NCBI GenBank assembly: GCA_017459675.1
Contig: JAFUCM010000004.1
Span: 1 to 56,532 of the forward strand
DNA from: Eubacterium sp.
GTDB taxonomy: Bacteria > Bacillota > Clostridia > Lachnospirales > Lachnospiraceae
DNA length: 56,532 nucleotides
Reading direction: 5' to 3'
Program-made: the position numbers and the translations under genes
Notes under the pieces: model-generated
Database searches by the model: none
What the model was told of the DNA's origin: nothing
Seen by the model: only the letters and a program-made list of their open reading frames with translations
Shown here: positions 3,019-48,046 of the stretch, piece by piece
How positions within the stretch are numbered: position 1 is the stretch's first letter
Layout: each line of letters opens with the position of its first letter

Positions 3019-4139
3019 GTCAGGATACGATGAACAGCAAACATCTCGGGAAAAAGAGTTCGGGCGTGGTTCTGAAAAATGTAACGAAGGTGTTTCAGCA
3101 GCCGGAGACAGGAAAGGATTTTGTCGCAGTCAATCACATCAATCTCGAGATACGCGACGGAGAGATGGTGACGCTGCTCGGACCTTCCGGATGCGGGAAA
3201 ACGACGACCCTCCGGATGATCTCAGGATTTGAATACCCTTCAGAGGGAAATGTCCTCATCGGCGAGCGCGACGTAGCAAAGATCCCGCCGAACAAACGGG
3301 GCATCTCCATGGTATTTCAGAGTTATGCGCTGTTTCCGCACATGAATATATTTGAAAACATCGCCTATGGTCTGCGTGTGGAGAAGCTTTCGCGCAGCGA
3401 GATCATTGAGCGCACCGCGCATGTCATAGATATGATGCAGCTCAAGGGCATGGAAGGACGTTTTCCGAATCAGCTTTCGGGCGGCCAGCAGCAGCGTGTC
3501 GCGCTGGCGCGTGCCGTCGTAATCGAGCCGAGTGTGCTGTTGTTCGACGAGCCGCTCTCCAATCTGGACGCAAAGCTCAGGGAGAGCATGCGGGATGAGC
3601 TGCGCGCGCTGCAGAAACGACTGGGGATCACCTCGCTGTATGTCACGCATGATCAGTCAGAGGCGATGGCGATCTCTGACCGTGTTGTCATCATGAAAGA
3701 CGGAAATATCATGCAGCACGGAAGCCCTGTGGAGATCTATGAGCACCCGGCAAGCCGCTTTGTGGCAAACTTTATCGGCAAGGCAAACTTTGTCGGGGGC
3801 GTGTTCCGGGGAAAGAAGCAGGATGGCTCCGCTGTTGTGGAAGTACTGGGGAAAGAGCTGCTGTTCCCGAGTCCGGGCGAGATGCAGGAAATCGAGATGA
3901 ACGGTCCGTGCTGTCTGTCTGTGCGCCCGGAATCCATATCACTTTCCAGGGACAGCGGTGATTTTCCGGGACGAGTGACCCGGGCAACCTATTACGGTGC
4001 AAAGATCGAATACGAGATTATGCTGCAGGAGCAGCCGGTCATCGTCGAGATCTACAATCCGCAGCTGACCGAGCGCTTCACGGAAGGGGAAGAAGTGTAC
4101 ATGACATTTATTGACAAATGCGTGAGAGTGCTGCGCTGA
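3015..4139 (+). CDS. ABC transporter ATP-binding protein (FbpC/PotA-like)
   Basis: Cytoplasmic ATPase of the importer, 374 aa. Walker A GPSGCGKT is at residues 56-63, followed by the Q-loop FQSYALFPHMN, the signature LSGGQQQRVALARA, Walker B LLFDEPLSNLD and the switch histidine in YVTHDQSEAM. The last 120 or so residues look like the TOBE regulatory domain common in iron, spermidine and sugar importers. The ATGA overlap with the permease shows it is the third gene of the operon. Its last codons are part of a 39-bp tandem duplication that repeats the stop region and the next ribosome binding site (4128-4205). Confidence 0.93.
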   Translation: MSQDTMNSKHLGKKSSGVVLKNVTKVFQQPETGKDFVAVNHINLEIRDGEMVTLLGPSGCGKTTTLRMISGFEYPSEGNVLIGERDVAKIPPNKRGISMVFQSYALFPHMNIFENIAYGLRVEKLSRSEIIERTAHVIDMMQLKGMEGRFPNQLSGGQQQRVALARAVVIEPSVLLFDEPLSNLDAKLRESMRDELRALQKRLGITSLYVTHDQSEAMAISDRVVIMKDGNIMQHGSPVEIYEHPASRFVANFIGKANFVGGVFRGKKQDGSAVVEVLGKELLFPSPGEMQEIEMNGPCCLSVRPESISLSRDSGDFPGRVTRATYYGAKIEYEIMLQEQPVIVEIYNPQLTERFTEGEEVYMTFIDKCVRVLR

Positions 4140-4205
4140 CATCATGGACGGCAAATAACAGGGAGCGTGCTGCGCTGACATCAGGGACAGACGAAAAGCA
4201 GGGAG
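4128..4205 (+). repeat. 39-bp tandem duplication across a gene junction
   Basis: GTGCTGCGCTGACATCA occurs at 4128-4144 and again at 4167-4183, each followed by a GGAC-containing spacer and a CAGGGAG box (ending 4165 and 4205). The period is 39-40 bases. The duplication repeats the end of the ATPase gene and the Shine-Dalgarno box of the next gene; only the second box is placed to serve the PHP gene. Confidence 0.8.
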
Positions 4206-4212
4206 AATGCAT

Positions 4213-4905
4213 ATGTATAAAATCGAGACCCATCTGCACACGACTTATATATCAAAATGCGGCTGGCTTGGTGCGGAAGGAATCGTCCGGATGTACAGAG
4301 CGTGCGGCTATGATGCGATCTGCGTGACAGATCATTACAACCGGACCTGCTTTGACTATGCAGAGATTGATCTCACGGGAGAAGGGAGCAGGACAGAAGC
4401 GTTTCTGCTCGGATACAGACGTGTCCGCGACGAGGCAGAGCGGTACGGGGTCCGCATATACGAAGGGGCAGAAGTCCGTTTTGACGGCTCCGAAAACGAC
4501 TACCTGGTATTCGGATTTCACCATGACCTGCTGGCGGAGCCTGACCGGATTATGCGCGAGGGGCTGAAGGTGTTTTCTGAAAAATGCAGACAGGACGGTG
4601 CACTGCTGATCCAGGCGCATCCGTATCGGTCGGGCACGCACTGTACGCCTGCGCCGCCCGCATATCTGGACGGCGTAGAGATCTTTAATGGAAATGCACG
4701 GCAGGACAACCGAAATGATCTGGCGCTTGCCTACGCAAAGGAACATGGTCTTCTGATGTTGTCCGGTTCTGATTTCCACAGACCGGGCGACCAGGGGCAG
4801 GGGGGCATCCTGACGAATATGCTGCCGGAAGATGGATTTCAGCTGGCGGATCTGATTCGCAGCGGACAATATAAGCTCATTATGCCAGAGGAGGAACCGG
4901 TATGA
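4213..4905 (+). CDS. PHP-domain metal-dependent phosphoesterase
   Basis: Cytoplasmic hydrolase of the polymerase-and-histidinol-phosphatase superfamily, about 230 aa, the size of stand-alone PHP enzymes. Metal ligands are visible in order: ETHLHTTY (His7, His9), CVTDHYN, the Glu of YEGAEVRF, the His of QAHPYRSG, and the closing SGSDFHRPGD. These make a trinuclear metal site that cleaves phosphate esters. The ATG at 4213 has AGGGAG 7 bases upstream; an in-frame ATG at 4207 overlaps that box. The stop overlaps the PfkB gene by four bases. Being encoded with an importer and a kinase, it may dephosphorylate or open a phosphodiester of the imported compound (inference). Confidence 0.85.
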   Translation: MYKIETHLHTTYISKCGWLGAEGIVRMYRACGYDAICVTDHYNRTCFDYAEIDLTGEGSRTEAFLLGYRRVRDEAERYGVRIYEGAEVRFDGSENDYLVFGFHHDLLAEPDRIMREGLKVFSEKCRQDGALLIQAHPYRSGTHCTPAPPAYLDGVEIFNGNARQDNRNDLALAYAKEHGLLMLSGSDFHRPGDQGQGGILTNMLPEDGFQLADLIRSGQYKLIMPEEEPV

Positions 4906-37314: not shown

Positions 37315-38370
37315 ATGAAAAACTGGAAAAAACTGATCGCAGTCGCTATGGCAGGCGCAATGTCCATGAGTATGCTGGCAGCATGCGGAAGCAGCTCTGA
37401 TTCAAGTGCAGCATCTTCTGCACCGGCAGCAGCATCAAGTGCAGCGGCATCCTCAGCATCAAGTGCGGCAGCTTCTTCTGTTGAGAAGAAGGACGGAGAC
37501 GTTAAGATTGCCTATATCGTAAAGGCTAAGACAGACGAGTTCTGGACAACCATGGAGACAGGTGCTTATGCGGCAGCAGAAGAAAAGGGCGTAACCCTTG
37601 AGTTCCAGGCACCGGAGAAAGAGACAGATGTTGAGAAACAGGTTCAGATGGTTGAGAACGCAGTTGTCAAGGGATTTGATGCAATTATCCTGTCAGCAGC
37701 TGACTCCACCTCTCTGCTTCCGTCAATTGTAAAGGCAAACAATGCAGGTATCCCGGTCGTTCTTGTAAATGACACCATCGATATGGACGAGCTTGAAAAG
37801 CAGGGCGGAAAGGTTGAGACATACGTCGGCATCAGCCAGTATGACGCAGCAGCACAGGCAGGTGTCTATGCAGCAGAAAACATTGAAGACGGCAAGATCT
37901 GCTATCTGGAAGGTGTTCCGGGCGTTAAGGCACTCGATGACCGTCTTGCAGGCTTCCAGGATCAGGCGCCTGATTTTGAGACAGTTGCATCCCAGACCGC
38001 TAAATGCGACAGAAACGAGGCCTACAATGTCATGCAGAACGTTCTGAATGCAAATCCGGATGTAAACGTTGTATGGGCAGTCAATGCTGAGATGGGTCAG
38101 GGCGCAATCCAGGCGATCGACCAGATGAAGAAGACTGGTTCCATCAGCGTATTCGACTTCGATGCTTCCTCTGATGACCTTGCAGCAATCGAAGCGGGAA
38201 CACTTGCAGGTACGGTTGCACAGTATCCGAACAAGCAGGCAGAAGCAGCAATCCAGGCATGCCTCGATGTTCTTGACGGCAAGACACTTGAAGAGCACAC
38301 AGAGACTCCGTCCCTTCTGGTTACTGCTGAGAACCTCGATGAGTACAAGGCAGAGATGGGAATCGAATAA
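37315..38370 (+). CDS. sugar-binding lipoprotein of the importer (RbsB/IbpA-like)
   Basis: Extracytoplasmic receptor, 351 aa. Signal peptide with lipobox LAAC (about residue 23), a Ser/Ala linker, then a type I binding fold: VKIAYIVKAKTDEFWTTMETGAYAAAEEKG, GFDAIILSAADSTSLLPSIVKANNAGIPVVLVND, and SVFDFDASSDDLAAIEAG with the hinge end. GAAAGGAG lies before the ATG. With the ATPase and permease it forms a complete importer. The dehydrogenase before and IolE after make inositol or an inositol isomer the best guess for the ligand. Confidence 0.9.
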   Translation: MKNWKKLIAVAMAGAMSMSMLAACGSSSDSSAASSAPAAASSAAASSASSAAASSVEKKDGDVKIAYIVKAKTDEFWTTMETGAYAAAEEKGVTLEFQAPEKETDVEKQVQMVENAVVKGFDAIILSAADSTSLLPSIVKANNAGIPVVLVNDTIDMDELEKQGGKVETYVGISQYDAAAQAGVYAAENIEDGKICYLEGVPGVKALDDRLAGFQDQAPDFETVASQTAKCDRNEAYNVMQNVLNANPDVNVVWAVNAEMGQGAIQAIDQMKKTGSISVFDFDASSDDLAAIEAGTLAGTVAQYPNKQAEAAIQACLDVLDGKTLEEHTETPSLLVTAENLDEYKAEMGIE

Positions 38371-39563: not shown

Positions 39564-40961
39564 ATGATTTCTGTCCCGAAATTATTCAGAAATACAAAAT
39601 CGGTGAAGCGGATGCAGGCGTACATGGATACCGTCTTCAATGAGGTCCTTCACACGACCCTCAATCCGGACGGGCCGGGCGCGATCCGCATCCATCTGAT
39701 TCCGCCGAAGAATGAGGAGAATACCCTCAATCCGAGTGTCGCGATCATCAACGGAACCGATGTCGTGCCGGTCAATTTTGCCTGGGCGGTGATTCTGGCG
39801 GAGATGATCCGCGAGACCAACCGGTTCGACGGGAAAGAAATCGGCGAGGCGGAGATTCAAAGCATTCTGGACCGGACATGTGAGAACGTGAAGCAGATCA
39901 TCCCGTTCTTTTCGCGGAAACGGATTCAGGCAGATATTCAGACGATTTATCAGACGCTGCGGCAGATCGCGTACCGCGAGGAAGTCACAACGGATGTCCA
40001 CTACATGAGCCTTGGCGAATATGCCGCATATATGAATGCGCCGCACCGGATGGACCTGCTGGTCAGCGCCATGACGAAGGACGGAAAATGGCACTGCAAT
40101 CAGAAATGTGTGCACTGCTATGCGGCGGGACAGACCCTGGCTGATGAGGAAGAACTCTCAACAGAATCCTGGAAGGAAATTCTCGCAAAATGCCGCGCGG
40201 CCGGGATTCCGCAGGTGACCTTTACCGGCGGGGAGCCGACCATGCGCGACGATCTTATTGACCTCATCAGGGAGGCGCGCTGGTTTATTTCCCGCCTGAA
40301 CACCAACGGGATCCGGCTCACGAAGGAGTACTGCAGCGCGCTGCACGCGGCCGAACTGGACAGCGTGCAGATTACGTTCTACTCCTGCGATCCGGATATT
40401 CACAACCGGCTGGTCGGCGCGGAGCAGTTTCAGAATACGGCAGCGGCGATTGAAAATGCGCTGGAGGAGGGGCTGTCGGTCAGCATCAACACGCCGCTCT
40501 GCACACTGAACCGGGACTACCGGAAGACGCTCGAATACCTGCATGAAAAAGGCGTCATCTATGTGACCTGCTCCGGCCTGATCACGACCGGAAATGCGGC
40601 CGGGGAAACCTCGGAGCATCTGCAGCTGACCGGGGAGGAACTCGAGAAAATCCTGCGGGAATCCGTCGCATACTGTCACGCGAACGGTATGGAGATTGCA
40701 TTTACCTCGCCGGGATGGATCGGGCAGGAGGTATTTGACGAATTAAATATCCCGTCGCCGTCCTGCGGCGCATGCCTGTCCAATATGGCAGTTACGCCTT
40801 CCGGAAATGTCGTGCCCTGTCAGAGCTGGCTGTCAGACCAGCCGCTGGGCAATCTGCTCTGCGATGACTGGAAAATGATCTGGGAGAGCGAAGCCTGCAG
40901 AGAGCGGCGGGCGTATTCCGCTGAGATGACCGGCCAATGTCCGCTGAGGAGGTACTGCTGA
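39564..40961 (+). CDS. radical SAM/SPASM enzyme paired with a Cys-repeat membrane protein
   Basis: Predicted S-adenosylmethionine radical enzyme, 465 aa. A 170-residue N-terminal domain of unknown type precedes the cluster motif Cys178-x3-Cys182-x2-Cys185 (CNQKCVHCYA), then the GGEP-type motif TFTGGEPTMRDD. A SPASM-like C-terminus carries extra cluster cysteines (CGACLSNMAVTPSGNVVPCQSW, then CPLRRYC as the last residues). AGGAGG lies before the ATG at 39564; an upstream in-frame TTG would include that box. The stop TGA shares its final A with the ATG of the next gene, so the two are coupled. SPASM enzymes usually modify peptides or proteins; the natural candidate substrate is the Cys-rich tail encoded next. 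Confidence 0.88.
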   Translation: MISVPKLFRNTKSVKRMQAYMDTVFNEVLHTTLNPDGPGAIRIHLIPPKNEENTLNPSVAIINGTDVVPVNFAWAVILAEMIRETNRFDGKEIGEAEIQSILDRTCENVKQIIPFFSRKRIQADIQTIYQTLRQIAYREEVTTDVHYMSLGEYAAYMNAPHRMDLLVSAMTKDGKWHCNQKCVHCYAAGQTLADEEELSTESWKEILAKCRAAGIPQVTFTGGEPTMRDDLIDLIREARWFISRLNTNGIRLTKEYCSALHAAELDSVQITFYSCDPDIHNRLVGAEQFQNTAAAIENALEEGLSVSINTPLCTLNRDYRKTLEYLHEKGVIYVTCSGLITTGNAAGETSEHLQLTGEELEKILRESVAYCHANGMEIAFTSPGWIGQEVFDELNIPSPSCGACLSNMAVTPSGNVVPCQSWLSDQPLGNLLCDDWKMIWESEACRERRAYSAEMTGQCPLRRYC

Positions 40962-42355
40962 TGAACCGTATAACCAGAATGAGAAATGCAAGGCCCGCCC
41001 TCGCAGATCTCCGGCGCGTAAATCATTCCCGGAACCGGAAACAGGGCAGACGCCTTCTGGCTCTGACAGTTCTGCTGATCATGGTGAGCATGGCAGTCAT
41101 GCTCGTGTTTCCGGCAGTCCCGGTCATGGCCGATGCGACCGATGAGATCCGTGATTTTACCATCACGGTTGATGTAAATGACGACGCCTCGCTCAACATG
41201 AATTACCACATCGAGTGGGAAGTGCTCGACGATTCGATCGGTGAGCTGGAATGGATCGACCTCGGCGTGCCGAACAGCTTTCATGAGGACATTGTGCCGG
41301 AAAGCGATACGATCGATTACATCGAAGATAATGGCAGCTCGCTGGCCATTTATCTGGACCGCGGCTACGGCGAAGATGAGATTGTCAGCGTCGATTTTTC
41401 CATGACGCAGGACCATATGTATCAGATTGACAAGTGGGTGGAGGGAGAATCCGTCTATACGTTCACGCCCGCGTGGTTTGACGGCATGGATGTTGATCAG
41501 CTTACCATCCGCTGGAATGCGGAAAATGCCGGCGCCTGGCAGCCGGACTGTCTGCAGGAGGACGGCTATCTGGTCTTTGAGACGTCACTGTCAGCAGGTG
41601 AGAAATATACCATCTCTGTCGTATATCCGAATGATACGTTCGGCTTTGTCCCGGAGCGGCAGGCCGGCGGCAGCGGCGGCGACTACGAAGATGGATATGA
41701 CGGCAGCTACGAGAGCGAGAGCGGCGGGTACAGCATTGCGGAAGGCATCGGGATCCTCATCGGAATCGTGATTTTCCTTGGCTTCCTTGCTGCGCCGTTC
41801 ATTGCACTGTATAAATTTATCCGCTGGATTGCCGGCGGCACCGGATTCGGCTCCGCCACATCCGGACAGCCGCAGACAAAAAAGAAGATCACGCGCACGA
41901 AGATCGAATATTACGAGAGCTGCCCGGGCTGCGGCGCCGTGCGTGAGGACGGCAAGGATAAATGTGCCTACTGCGGGCGCAGTATGATCAAGAGCAAAGA
42001 AGTTGTGGAAGAAGATCAGATTGAAGAACCGGAGAAATATACGAAGCGCGGAACATACCGGTACGGAGATGCGCCGAATACCTTTATCCGCGTCAATGTG
42101 ATCAACGTGCCGGTCAGCCGGCCGCGGCCGTCTTCGCACACTTCCCGTTCTTCCCGCTCGGGCGGATCACATCACTCGTCCTGTGCATCCTCCTGCGCAT
42201 GTGCATCTTCCTGCGCGTGCGCGTCCTCCTGTGCATGCGCCTGCGCGTGTGCGTCCTCGGGACGGGCGGGCTGCTCCGTGAAAGATTTCTTCCGGGACAG
42301 CATTCATAACGGCCGGGTCCGTGTGCAGCAGTATCATACGAAGAAGAATGAATAG
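40961..42355 (+). CDS. membrane protein with zinc ribbon and CAC/SSC cysteine-repeat tail
   Basis: 464 aa. A basic N-terminus and membrane segment (about residues 32-56) lead to an exported beta-rich domain (about 60-240, DUF2207-like in feel), a Gly/Tyr/Ser spacer, a second membrane segment (about 259-287), a zinc ribbon (Cys321, 324, 335, 338), an acidic stretch, and a tail from residue 400. The tail repeats SSCACA units: cysteines 408, 412, 414, 418, 420, 424, 426, 428, 430, then GRAGC with Cys438 and SVKDFF. With two membrane segments and an outside domain, the ribbon and tail would face the cytoplasm. GAGGAGG in the previous gene drives a start overlapping the radical SAM stop. I do not recognise a described function. 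Confidence 0.75.
   Translation: MNRITRMRNARPALADLRRVNHSRNRKQGRRLLALTVLLIMVSMAVMLVFPAVPVMADATDEIRDFTITVDVNDDASLNMNYHIEWEVLDDSIGELEWIDLGVPNSFHEDIVPESDTIDYIEDNGSSLAIYLDRGYGEDEIVSVDFSMTQDHMYQIDKWVEGESVYTFTPAWFDGMDVDQLTIRWNAENAGAWQPDCLQEDGYLVFETSLSAGEKYTISVVYPNDTFGFVPERQAGGSGGDYEDGYDGSYESESGGYSIAEGIGILIGIVIFLGFLAAPFIALYKFIRWIAGGTGFGSATSGQPQTKKKITRTKIEYYESCPGCGAVREDGKDKCAYCGRSMIKSKEVVEEDQIEEPEKYTKRGTYRYGDAPNTFIRVNVINVPVSRPRPSSHTSRSSRSGGSHHSSCASSCACASSCACASSCACACACASSGRAGCSVKDFFRDSIHNGRVRVQQYHTKKNE
42179..42274 (+). repeat. coding Cys-Ala/Ser-Ser repeat tract
   Basis: An 18-bp-type unit encoding SSCACA is repeated three to four times with the final unit extended by two extra Cys-Ala pairs. Synonymous codons vary (TGT and TGC; GCA, GCG and GCC), so the repeat is conserved as protein rather than as fresh DNA slippage. 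Confidence 0.8.
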
Positions 42356-45975: not shown

Positions 45976-46049
45976 TGCATGCGTGCCTGCTATACTGACC
46001 TCACAGAGATGAAACACAGCCCGCCGCGGGGCAGAAAGTGAGGTCAGAA

Positions 46050-46724
46050 ATGAGAAAAGGATTAACAGAACTGGTATTTATTCTCGACAGAAGCGGATCC
46101 ATGTCCGGTCTGGAAGCAGATACAATCGGGGGCTTCAACGGCCTGCTTGCGAAGCAGAAAAAGGAGGAAGGAGAAGCGCTTGTATCGGTCGTCCTGTTTG
46201 ACGACGTGACAGAGGTCATTTACGACCGGACCGATATCCGGAAGGTTGAGCCGCTGAACGACAGCCAGTATTATGTGCGCGGCTGCACAGCACTGCTGGA
46301 TGCGGTCGGCGGAGCCATTCATCACATCGGAAACGTCCACAGATACGCCAGAGAAGAAGATGTGCCGGAAAAGACACTGTTTATCATCACCACCGACGGA
46401 ATGGAAAACGCAAGCCGTGTATATAATTATGAGAAGGTCCGCCGGATGATCGAACGCCAGAAGGAAAAATATCACTGGGAATTCCTGTTTCTCGGCGCCA
46501 ATATTGATGCGGTTTCTGTGGCCGGCAGCTTCGGCATCCGTCCGAACCGCGCAGTACGCTACGAGCATGATGCAAAAGGGACCAGACTGAACTTCGAAGT
46601 CATGTCAAATGCAGTTTCTTATGCGCGGATGTCTGCATCTGCAGAAGCGATGGAGGAAATGCTCGATGACGAGGAACTGCTTGCGCCCATCCGCCGGGAC
46701 TACAAGAAACGGCACCGCCGGTGA
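46050..46724 (+). CDS. VWA domain protein (TerY-like)
   Basis: A 224-residue single von Willebrand A domain. The metal-ion-dependent adhesion site is complete: DRSGSMS (Asp13, Ser15, Ser17), a Thr in RGCTALLDAVG, and the TTDGMEN acid. No signal peptide or membrane segment is present, so it is cytoplasmic, as in TerY-type proteins. GAGGTC lies close before the ATG; an in-frame GTG at 46038 is the alternative. TerY-like proteins belong to Ter-linked stress systems described by comparative genomics. The next gene has a macro domain, which hints at ADP-ribose signalling. No TerD or kinase gene is visible here. Confidence 0.85.
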   Translation: MRKGLTELVFILDRSGSMSGLEADTIGGFNGLLAKQKKEEGEALVSVVLFDDVTEVIYDRTDIRKVEPLNDSQYYVRGCTALLDAVGGAIHHIGNVHRYAREEDVPEKTLFIITTDGMENASRVYNYEKVRRMIERQKEKYHWEFLFLGANIDAVSVAGSFGIRPNRAVRYEHDAKGTRLNFEVMSNAVSYARMSASAEAMEEMLDDEELLAPIRRDYKKRHRR

Positions 46725-46840: not shown

Positions 46841-48046
46841 ATGCCATTTAAGATTATTCGCAATGATATTACCAGGATGGAAACCGAAGCCATTGTAAAT
46901 ACGGCAAATGATCATCCGAGTGTCGGAACCGGATGTGATCATGCGGTTTATCAGGCGGCAGGCTATGAAGAGCTGCTTGCATACAGGAAGGAGAAGATCG
47001 GCTTTGCGGAAGAAGGCGAAGCATTTATGACACCCGGATTCTGCCTTCCTGCGAAATATATCATTCATGCCGTGAGTCCGCTTTATATTGACGGAAATCA
47101 TCATGAAGAGGAACTGCTCCGGTCCTGCTACCGGAAAAGCCTGGCACTTGCTGCCCAAAACGGAATCCGGTCCATTGCATTTCCCCTGATCTCAACCGGC
47201 GGATTCGGATACCCGAAAGAAGAGGGCATGCGGATCGCAGTCGACGAAATACATGCATTTCTGATGCATTCAGATATGGAGATTTACCTCGTTGTGTTCG
47301 ACGAGAAGGCGACCCGGATGGGAAAAAGTCTGTATCCGGAACTTGAAGCCTATATTGACCGCAATTACGTGGAGGAGAAGCGCGAGGAAGAATACGGCGG
47401 CGCTTATTATGCGGCCTGGAGGACGCGGGAAGAAGCGGCAGAAGACTTCATGATGGATAGGGAGGAACCGCACCGCGAAGCAGACCGGGCACCGTATCAG
47501 GAAGGAAACATGCCGGAGGCGCCATTATTCAACGAGCGGCCCTCCAGAAGAATGAGCAGACGCCGGGATGAACGTGAGATGTACAGGCCGGCGGCGTCTC
47601 CGCGTTTCGATGAAGATGTCATGGACGCTGCGCCGGCAATTTCCATCGACCAGGATGAAGCGATTGAAGAAATGGAGCGAAAACTCGCTGCCAGAGTGGC
47701 CCACGTCTCCGATACATTTTCCGAGTATCTGCTCTATCTGATCGGAGAAAAAGGCCTGACCAATGCCGATGTCTACAAAGGTGCCATCGTCGACAAAAAG
47801 GTCTTCTCCAAGATCAAGAACAATCCGAATTATCATCCGCAGAAACTGACGGCACTCTGCCTGTGTGTGGGTGCGCATCTGAACATGGACGAGACAAAAG
47901 ATCTTCTCGCGCGGGCCGGCTACGCCCTGTCGCCCTGTGACATCACAGATATCATTTTCTCGTTCTTTATCGAGAACCGGATTTATAACATGATCGAGCT
48001 GGATATTCAGCTTGAAGAACACGGGCAGCCGTGTATCATTTCCTGA
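46841..48046 (+). CDS. macro-domain protein with C-terminal XRE-like domain
   Basis: 401 aa. Residues 1-165 form a macro domain that binds or hydrolyses ADP-ribose derivatives (AIVNTANDHPSVGTGCDHAVYQAAG, then FMTPGFCLPAKYIIHAVSP and AFPLISTGGFGYPKEEG); the first loop lacks the usual glycine run. A charged, Arg/Glu-rich linker spans about 170-265. The last 135 residues (EYLLYLIGEKGLTNADVYKGAIVDKKVFSKI to ARAGYALSPCDITDIIFSFFIEN) match a helical XRE-like module known to me fused to other signalling domains in Bacillota. AAAGGAGG precedes the ATG. It lies between a VWA gene and an exonuclease-like remnant. Confidence 0.82.
   Translation: MPFKIIRNDITRMETEAIVNTANDHPSVGTGCDHAVYQAAGYEELLAYRKEKIGFAEEGEAFMTPGFCLPAKYIIHAVSPLYIDGNHHEEELLRSCYRKSLALAAQNGIRSIAFPLISTGGFGYPKEEGMRIAVDEIHAFLMHSDMEIYLVVFDEKATRMGKSLYPELEAYIDRNYVEEKREEEYGGAYYAAWRTREEAAEDFMMDREEPHREADRAPYQEGNMPEAPLFNERPSRRMSRRRDEREMYRPAASPRFDEDVMDAAPAISIDQDEAIEEMERKLAARVAHVSDTFSEYLLYLIGEKGLTNADVYKGAIVDKKVFSKIKNNPNYHPQKLTALCLCVGAHLNMDETKDLLARAGYALSPCDITDIIFSFFIENRIYNMIELDIQLEEHGQPCIIS

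Follow-up and report, generated by a model that had tools for sequence, protein, structure and literature searches.

The window analysed here, 56,532 nucleotides of a Eubacterium sp. genome of the Lachnospiraceae (assembly GCA_017459675.1, contig JAFUCM010000004.1, positions 1 to 56,532, forward strand), encodes a radical S-adenosylmethionine (SAM) enzyme followed directly by a membrane protein with a C-terminal tail of repeated cysteine and alanine residues. The presence of these two genes, described in an initial annotation made from the sequence alone, was confirmed. They share one base within TGATG, and a recount placed ten Cys in the 31 residues 408-438 of the membrane protein, as the annotation had claimed. 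We consider it probable that the enzyme and the membrane protein are a dedicated maturase and its substrate, the product being Cys crosslinks, likely thioethers, in a tail that would be retained in the cytoplasm. Genomic tests of the pairing, of tail conservation and of gene neighbourhoods support the reading of a modified cytoplasmic tail on a membrane protein.

Co-occurrence of the enzyme and the tailed membrane protein

The two genes were searched for in a family sample of 200 genomes (thresholds of E 1e-40 for the enzyme and E 1e-3 for the membrane-protein query), a class sample of 341 genomes (E 1e-80 and E 1e-15) and a phylum sample of 378 genomes (E 1e-80 and E 1e-10). The samples overlap in the window's own genome (G000), present in all three, and in some genomes without matches, and their totals are not additive; in the class and phylum samples at most four or five candidates were scored per genome, and the counts leave out weaker homologues below these thresholds. 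The enzyme was found in 16 of the 200 family genomes, each time with an adjoining tail protein. The membrane-protein query matched 19 genomes, 16 of them the enzyme genomes. Two of the other three (G010, G073) showed zinc-ribbon similarity only, and the third (G082) carries a DUF2207-like homologue that lacks the tail, in a genome also lacking the enzyme at E 1e-40. Each gene occurred in eight genomes of the class sample and in ten of the phylum sample, and in both samples the genomes were identical for the two genes. The co-occurrence proposed as a check in the initial annotation was thus observed at all three levels.

Altogether the pair was present in 32 distinct genomes, with a complete tail in 29, a partial one at a contig end in one (G812, L274) and one obscured by the end of the contig or by Ns in two (G439, G922). 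None of these 32 enzyme-found genomes had the enzyme beside partners that all lacked a tail. In G401 the contig ends within the tail adjoining the enzyme; its place among the complete tails is owed to a second copy on a different contig. One enzyme match was accompanied by two complete tail proteins in three genomes (G201, G203, G445); the window's own genome contains a single copy of the unit.

A reverse test started from the tail. A DNA pattern of the tail core gave at least 120 matching stretches in 84,980 species genomes, and 80 were examined as loci. Ten (L050, L055, L057, L058, L070, L073, L106, L108, L118 and L121), with neither the enzyme nor the N-terminal domain in the locus, were rejected as chance matches. 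Among the 70 true tail loci, which are not 70 genomes (L067 and L072 share a contig), 62 contained the N-terminal domain and 56 the enzyme. Of the 14 enzyme-less loci, 13 are uninformative on the enzyme, since the sequence ahead of the frame with the tail is no longer than 291 bases; the genome of one of these, L066, does have the enzyme adjoining a tail protein. Both genes are thus present in Gemmiger formicilis ATCC 27749 (L066, L185, L215), a cultured host. Frequent tail homologues without a radical SAM gene had been named in the initial annotation as evidence that would speak against it, and such homologues proved rare: the enzyme accompanied the tail in 56 of 57 judgeable loci, the sole exception among the matches listed being a truncated gene (L080).

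True tail loci came from records named Oscillospiraceae, Gemmiger, Fournierella, Acholeplasmatales, Bacilli and Eggerthellaceae, mostly metagenome-assembled genomes (MAGs). Six matches with similarity confined to the zinc ribbon (approximately residues 302-374; L018, L019, L022, L025, L027 and L029) were excluded, and the single IMG/VR match (L261), a short frame without the N-terminal domain, looks like chance. No enzyme match was obtained in plasmids at E 1e-20. The phage search returned one enzyme homologue with 50% identity (MT837216.1, positions 3534-4865), in an unannotated 7.4 kb record named 'Bacteriophage sp.' from human faeces, possibly bacterial DNA in a virome.

Conservation of the tail and class of the enzyme

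The 16 membrane proteins of the family sample, none of which was found through the tail pattern, range from 78% down to 28% in identity to the window protein. C-A-C-A-C-A-C-A, G-R-A-G-C and the following K and F are invariant in all of them, and residues 424-443, within and just after the tail, hold 15 of the 30 invariant columns. An alignment for Cys spacing, another check proposed at the outset, hence revealed a strongly preserved core. Its flank is less constant: the core is kept beside a changed flank in GGGRVGCSERGYQVLHW of G512 and VGGRVGCSERGYQVLHW of G520, and the phylum clade has the variant CACACAGGxGAGC followed by KF. In the window, the tail is encoded by a mixture of TGT and TGC for Cys and of GCA, GCC and GCG for Ala. 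Across 25 chosen homologous tails, each of 11 core codons for fixed residues appears as two to five synonymous codons; because 17 of these tails came from the pattern scan, the fixity of the residues in this set is partly due to selection of the sequences. The synonymous variety, taken together with the independent conservation in the pattern-free homologues, bears out the claim that the repeat is maintained at the protein level.

In each of the 16 family members the N-terminus is hydrophobic, and another hydrophobic segment precedes the tail. Within the 15 residues that follow this other segment, Lys and Arg together outnumber Asp and Glu in 15 of the 16 proteins, and by this positive-inside charge the tail should face the cytoplasm. 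The zinc ribbon that the annotation had placed before the tail is present in the window protein but optional in the family: five of 16 homologues lack it and retain the tail core, and on this alignment the ribbon is dispensable. No Pfam match was obtained for the window membrane protein and no significant NCBIfam match for the tail proteins. The DUF2207 model PF09972 matched weakly in three of the 16 and in 11 of 74 relatives (best 1.2e-4), but not in the window protein, and an hhalign comparison of the domain with DUF2207 gave a probability of 59%. By these profiles the membrane protein looks like a divergent DUF2207 relative.

The enzyme matched the Radical_SAM and SPASM models of Pfam above cut-off. 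Among 56 aligned enzymes, in which L033 and L113 are near-duplicates from the same genome (another alignment holds L003/L113 and L004/L112), the Twitch cysteines were conserved at position 401 in 56, at 419 in 56, at 445 in 51 and at 459 in 54. The SPASM/Twitch motif is defined as CX9-15GX4C followed by further C-terminal Cys ligands (PMC6231123). The enzyme of the Lachnospiraceae clade is a radical SAM protein of the SPASM/Twitch subgroup and of the four-Cys Twitch type. Its naming as a SPASM enzyme stands for the Pfam domain, but the conserved Cys set is that of a four-Cys Twitch and not of a seven-Cys SPASM domain; the full SPASM set was seen in the two distant-clade enzymes displayed (L263, L266). 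Four enzymes from three clades were compared with NCBIfam, and none reached the cut-off of any of its 25 best families. The closest solved structure by profile comparison was SkfB (E 9.9e-21), an enzyme that forms thioethers between Cys and alpha-carbons.

The N-terminal extension of the enzyme is conserved across the family in two alignments. Its best profile match in the PDB was a MarR protein at E 0.075, and no Pfam match was consistent. In the enzyme of G062 (L045) a 13-residue unit, rich in Gly, Arg and Lys, is repeated in tandem about seven times within this extension. A terminal Cys of the enzyme occurred in 10 of 10 pairs with SS-type tails and in three of 44 with other tails (one further pair of the 55, L115, was omitted, its follower being too short for the pattern). 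This link was set aside as a functional signal and is probably phylogenetic only.

The features of the locus are compiled in Table 1. AGGAGG lies just upstream of the ATG of the membrane-protein gene, which has an alternative, longer in-frame start at 40937. No RNA family reached the gathering threshold between positions 38000 and 43500 of the window. Further downstream, positions 46038-46724 encode a VWA-like protein with Pfam matches below cut-off; the gene after it (46841-48046) matches ADP-ribose macro-domain models in its N-terminal part and has a long C-terminal extension.

Table 1 Features of the enzyme and membrane-protein genes in the window
Feature	Position	Strand	Remarks
Radical SAM/SPASM-Twitch enzyme, 465 aa	39564..40961	+	PF04055 4.5e-22, PF13186 1.8e-6, both above Pfam cut-off
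Enzyme N-terminal extension, approximately residues 1-170	39564..40073	+	Kept in family alignments; possible substrate-binding domain
CX3CX2C radical SAM cluster motif, Cys 178, 182, 185	40095..40118	+	56/56 aligned enzymes
Twitch-type auxiliary cluster region, Cys 401, 419, 445, 459	40764..40940	+	Enzyme alignment; C-X12-G-X4-C spacing
TGATG stop/start overlap of enzyme and membrane-protein genes	40959..40963	+	
Membrane protein, 464 aa, divergent DUF2207-like with Cys-Ala tail, proposed substrate	40961..42355	+	
N-terminal hydrophobic segment (signal peptide or anchor), residues 32-50	41054..41110	+	Hydropathy
DUF2207-like domain, residues ~56-232, proposed extracytoplasmic	41126..41656	+	Weak PF09972 matches in relatives; profile comparison 59%
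Transmembrane segment, residues 265-283	41753..41809	+	Hydropathy
Zinc ribbon, Cys 321, 324, 335, 338	41921..41974	+	Absent in 5/16 homologues
Cys-Ala tail, residues 408-438, ten Cys in 31 residues	42182..42274	+	
Tail core CACACACA-SS-GRAGC	42230..42274	+	Invariant 16/16 except SS/GG pair; GG in most relatives
Follower segment SVKDFF	42275..42292	+	Relatives mostly [ST]xKDFYxT; distant clades SERGYQVLHW or [AT]xKF

Proposed maturation of the tail and alternative explanations

The enzyme and its putative substrate would be produced together, and the membrane protein would be inserted with the DUF2207-like domain outside and the C-terminal tail in the cytoplasm. There the cytosolic enzyme could bind the tail; its N-terminal extension and, behind the repeat, the follower motif may provide the contact. 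A 5'-deoxyadenosyl radical would then abstract hydrogen from tail residues, and Cys sulfurs would be joined to carbon atoms of neighbouring residues, with thioethers of the sactionine or ranthionine type as the most likely product. Once crosslinked, the Cys-Ala segment would stay on the protein as a rigid or redox-stable cytoplasmic element of an envelope module of the LemA/TPM/DUF2207 type. We infer topology, binding, modification, chemistry and function in these steps from the sequences and their distribution. That the tail is stitched into a permanent thioether-crosslinked element of such a module, as a lasting structural or sensory part, is plausible, and we hold it more loosely than the assignment of maturase and substrate.

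The gene neighbourhoods bear on the fate of the tail. Those of the 16 family pairs covered 12-22 kb each, some being ended by contig ends. Beyond the pair no gene occurred in more than four of the 16 (two groups of four and two groups of three, the latter transporter-like by eye), so there is no conserved protease or exporter; the annotation had reported none adjacent in the window, and none recurs in the family. In a distant clade (L281-L289) the enzyme gene is followed in an operon by those for the tail protein, a TPM protein and LemA, in this order. The LemA gene was reached in six of nine members, the other three ending at contig ends, and Pfam confirmed TPM or LemA in nine of ten proteins scanned, the tenth (L285, in the TPM position) being grouped by BLAST only. 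In two of the nine (G636 and G674; L281, L282) the tail is internal and the protein continues into a TPM domain, which disfavours release of the tail as a peptide. TPM and LemA genes do not recur beside the 16 Lachnospiraceae-type pairs. In four of the five family members without a zinc ribbon, an apparently membrane-bound protein is encoded directly upstream of the enzyme (L176:7352-8200, L177:11451-12278, L178:10750-11589 and L180:11547-12554) and may be a third component in this lineage.

Several observations weigh against the proposed maturation. In the NCBIfam scan the window enzyme scored higher with MoaA (96.1 bits), NirJ2 (95.2 bits) and further generic models than with the SkfB model (47.9 bits), and the SkfB profile match covers chiefly the shared radical SAM core. 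Because that match is mostly common core and such generic models score higher, homology cannot tell the type of reaction. A leader-binding domain resembling the recognition element (RRE) of ribosomally synthesized and post-translationally modified peptides (RiPPs) was not detected by sequence in the N-terminal extension; hhalign comparisons with three PqqD sets gave 12%, 0.2% and 3%, whereas two of these sets retrieved the first at 87% and 95%. A reverse profile search with the domain recovered none of 14 DUF2207 proteins at E 10, so that the relation to DUF2207 is a weak one. Nor is the pair always intact. The enzyme matches of G439 and G512 each contain one stop codon, and in G520 (L208:6663-9592) the membrane-protein gene is split by an insert with transposase-like frames, the tail piece lying beyond it; the enzyme gene beside this interrupted gene has an open frame of 459 codons. 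Three tandem paralogues follow one enzyme in G203 (L051), two of them tailed and the third not. Strict dependence of the tail on the enzyme is called into question by L080, a frame without the signal-peptide region in a 1.7 Mb MAG (G200) with no enzyme at E 1e-40, where the truncation of the gene suggests decay. Finally, co-occurrence shows that the two genes are functionally linked and does not tell which protein acts on which.

Two alternatives retain some weight, and we judge both unlikely to a similar degree. In the first, the tail is an unmodified thiol segment that binds a metal or cluster, like a metallothionein or a redox sensor, and the enzyme acts elsewhere in the pathway, for instance by making a cofactor held by the tail. 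CxC repeats commonly bind metals, and 11 of the 16 family members carry a zinc ribbon ahead of the tail. Against this stands the pairing with the enzyme in 32 genomes; moreover, the tail core outlasts the ribbon in the five members that have lost it, and fixed Ala residues and GRAGC would not be needed for plain metal binding. The second alternative accepts the tail as target but assumes other radical chemistry, namely epimerisation, carbon-carbon crosslinks or carbon modification of Ala or Arg, with the cysteines left free. SPASM/Twitch enzymes catalyse many reactions and the NCBIfam matches of this one are generic. Thioether formation is favoured over such chemistry by the invariant residues of the tail, among which Cys and Ala recur most often, and by a sactisynthase being the best structural profile match.

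Somewhat less likely still is a membrane-anchored RiPP precursor, of which the tail would be crosslinked and then cleaved and released as a peptide. The Cys-rich core behind a long leader-like part would suit such a precursor, and two tail proteins per enzyme occur here as in RiPP clusters. A core that scarcely varies, a tail predicted to be cytoplasmic, its internal position before the TPM domain in two distant members and the lack of a recurring protease or exporter around the 16 family pairs all argue for a tail that stays on the protein. That a low-complexity tail lies by accident beside an unrelated radical SAM gene is hardly credible: such tails are frequent among DUF2207 proteins (11 of 14 had a Gly-rich one), but the co-occurrence counts and the fixed residues with synonymous codon variety contradict it.

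Comparison with known systems

A full-text literature search, with subscription papers and preprints mostly outside its coverage, returned no title describing such a pair, so that a description beyond this coverage is possible; no paper in full text joined DUF2207 with radical SAM enzymes, and six mention both radical SAM and LemA. As a SPASM/Twitch maturase with a Cys-rich target, the pair would be new in its type of target and its setting. Radical SAM/SPASM enzymes are mainly known for their part in small secreted peptides, in cofactor making and in a few enzyme maturations (in part from PMC8326336). If the proposed maturation is correct, this chemistry would find a wider use, with the repetitive tail of a resident membrane protein as its target. 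For a protein that resides permanently in the cell envelope such a modification would be unusual, radical peptide chemistry then building a lasting part of the envelope instead of a secreted peptide. The unit is carried by many Bacillota of the gut and by some other Bacillota.

SkfB and the sactipeptide maturases resemble the enzyme in the radical SAM core, the Twitch-type Cys set, the best PDB profile match and a candidate Cys-containing substrate gene adjoining. They differ in that the candidate substrate here is a membrane protein of approximately 320-690 aa and not a short secreted peptide, and no protease or exporter recurs. By the description of sactipeptide and ranthipeptide systems as a short precursor with export or protease genes, the pair falls outside both. 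SkfB also has an RRE before its core (PMC6231123), whereas the corresponding region of the pair's enzyme is conserved but yielded no RRE by sequence. SCIFF and ranthipeptide systems likewise combine a Cys-rich target with a SPASM maturase (as excerpted from PMC8326336), but have small-peptide precursors and another architecture, and no model of this kind is among the best 25 NCBIfam families for the enzyme. TIGR04133 and TIGR04134 are alike by model name only, as a radical SAM enzyme with a putative lipoprotein (envelope) partner; the window enzyme scored 78.8 bits against a curated TIGR04133 cut-off of 425 bits.

Precedents for the single elements of the proposed maturation exist. TvgB modifies a TVGG-repeat peptide (in excerpts of PMC9062424) and thus provides one for the modification of repeats. 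For the maturation of whole proteins, QhpD and the anaerobic sulfatase-maturating enzymes are radical SAM enzymes acting on proteins that retain the modification (in excerpts of PMC8326336). Their targets are enzymes, whereas the candidate target here is the repetitive Cys-Ala tail of a membrane protein. From these three cases we infer by analogy that thioethers could form in such a tail.

The membrane protein is related to DUF2207 (PF09972) proteins by the weak profile evidence for its N-terminal domain and by the TPM and LemA neighbours of the distant clade. A DUF2207 member of Streptococcus mutans affects acid and peroxide tolerance and biofilm (PMC10457818). Ordinary DUF2207 proteins differ in their tails, which were Gly-rich by eye in 11 of 14, the other three having none in the available stretch; no Cys-Ala tail was seen in the displayed ends of the 14. 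One of the 11 is encoded in the window's own genome (G000:C132:25140-25757, L256). Should the Cys-Ala tail prove to be modified, the pair would give a handle on the molecular role of DUF2207 proteins.

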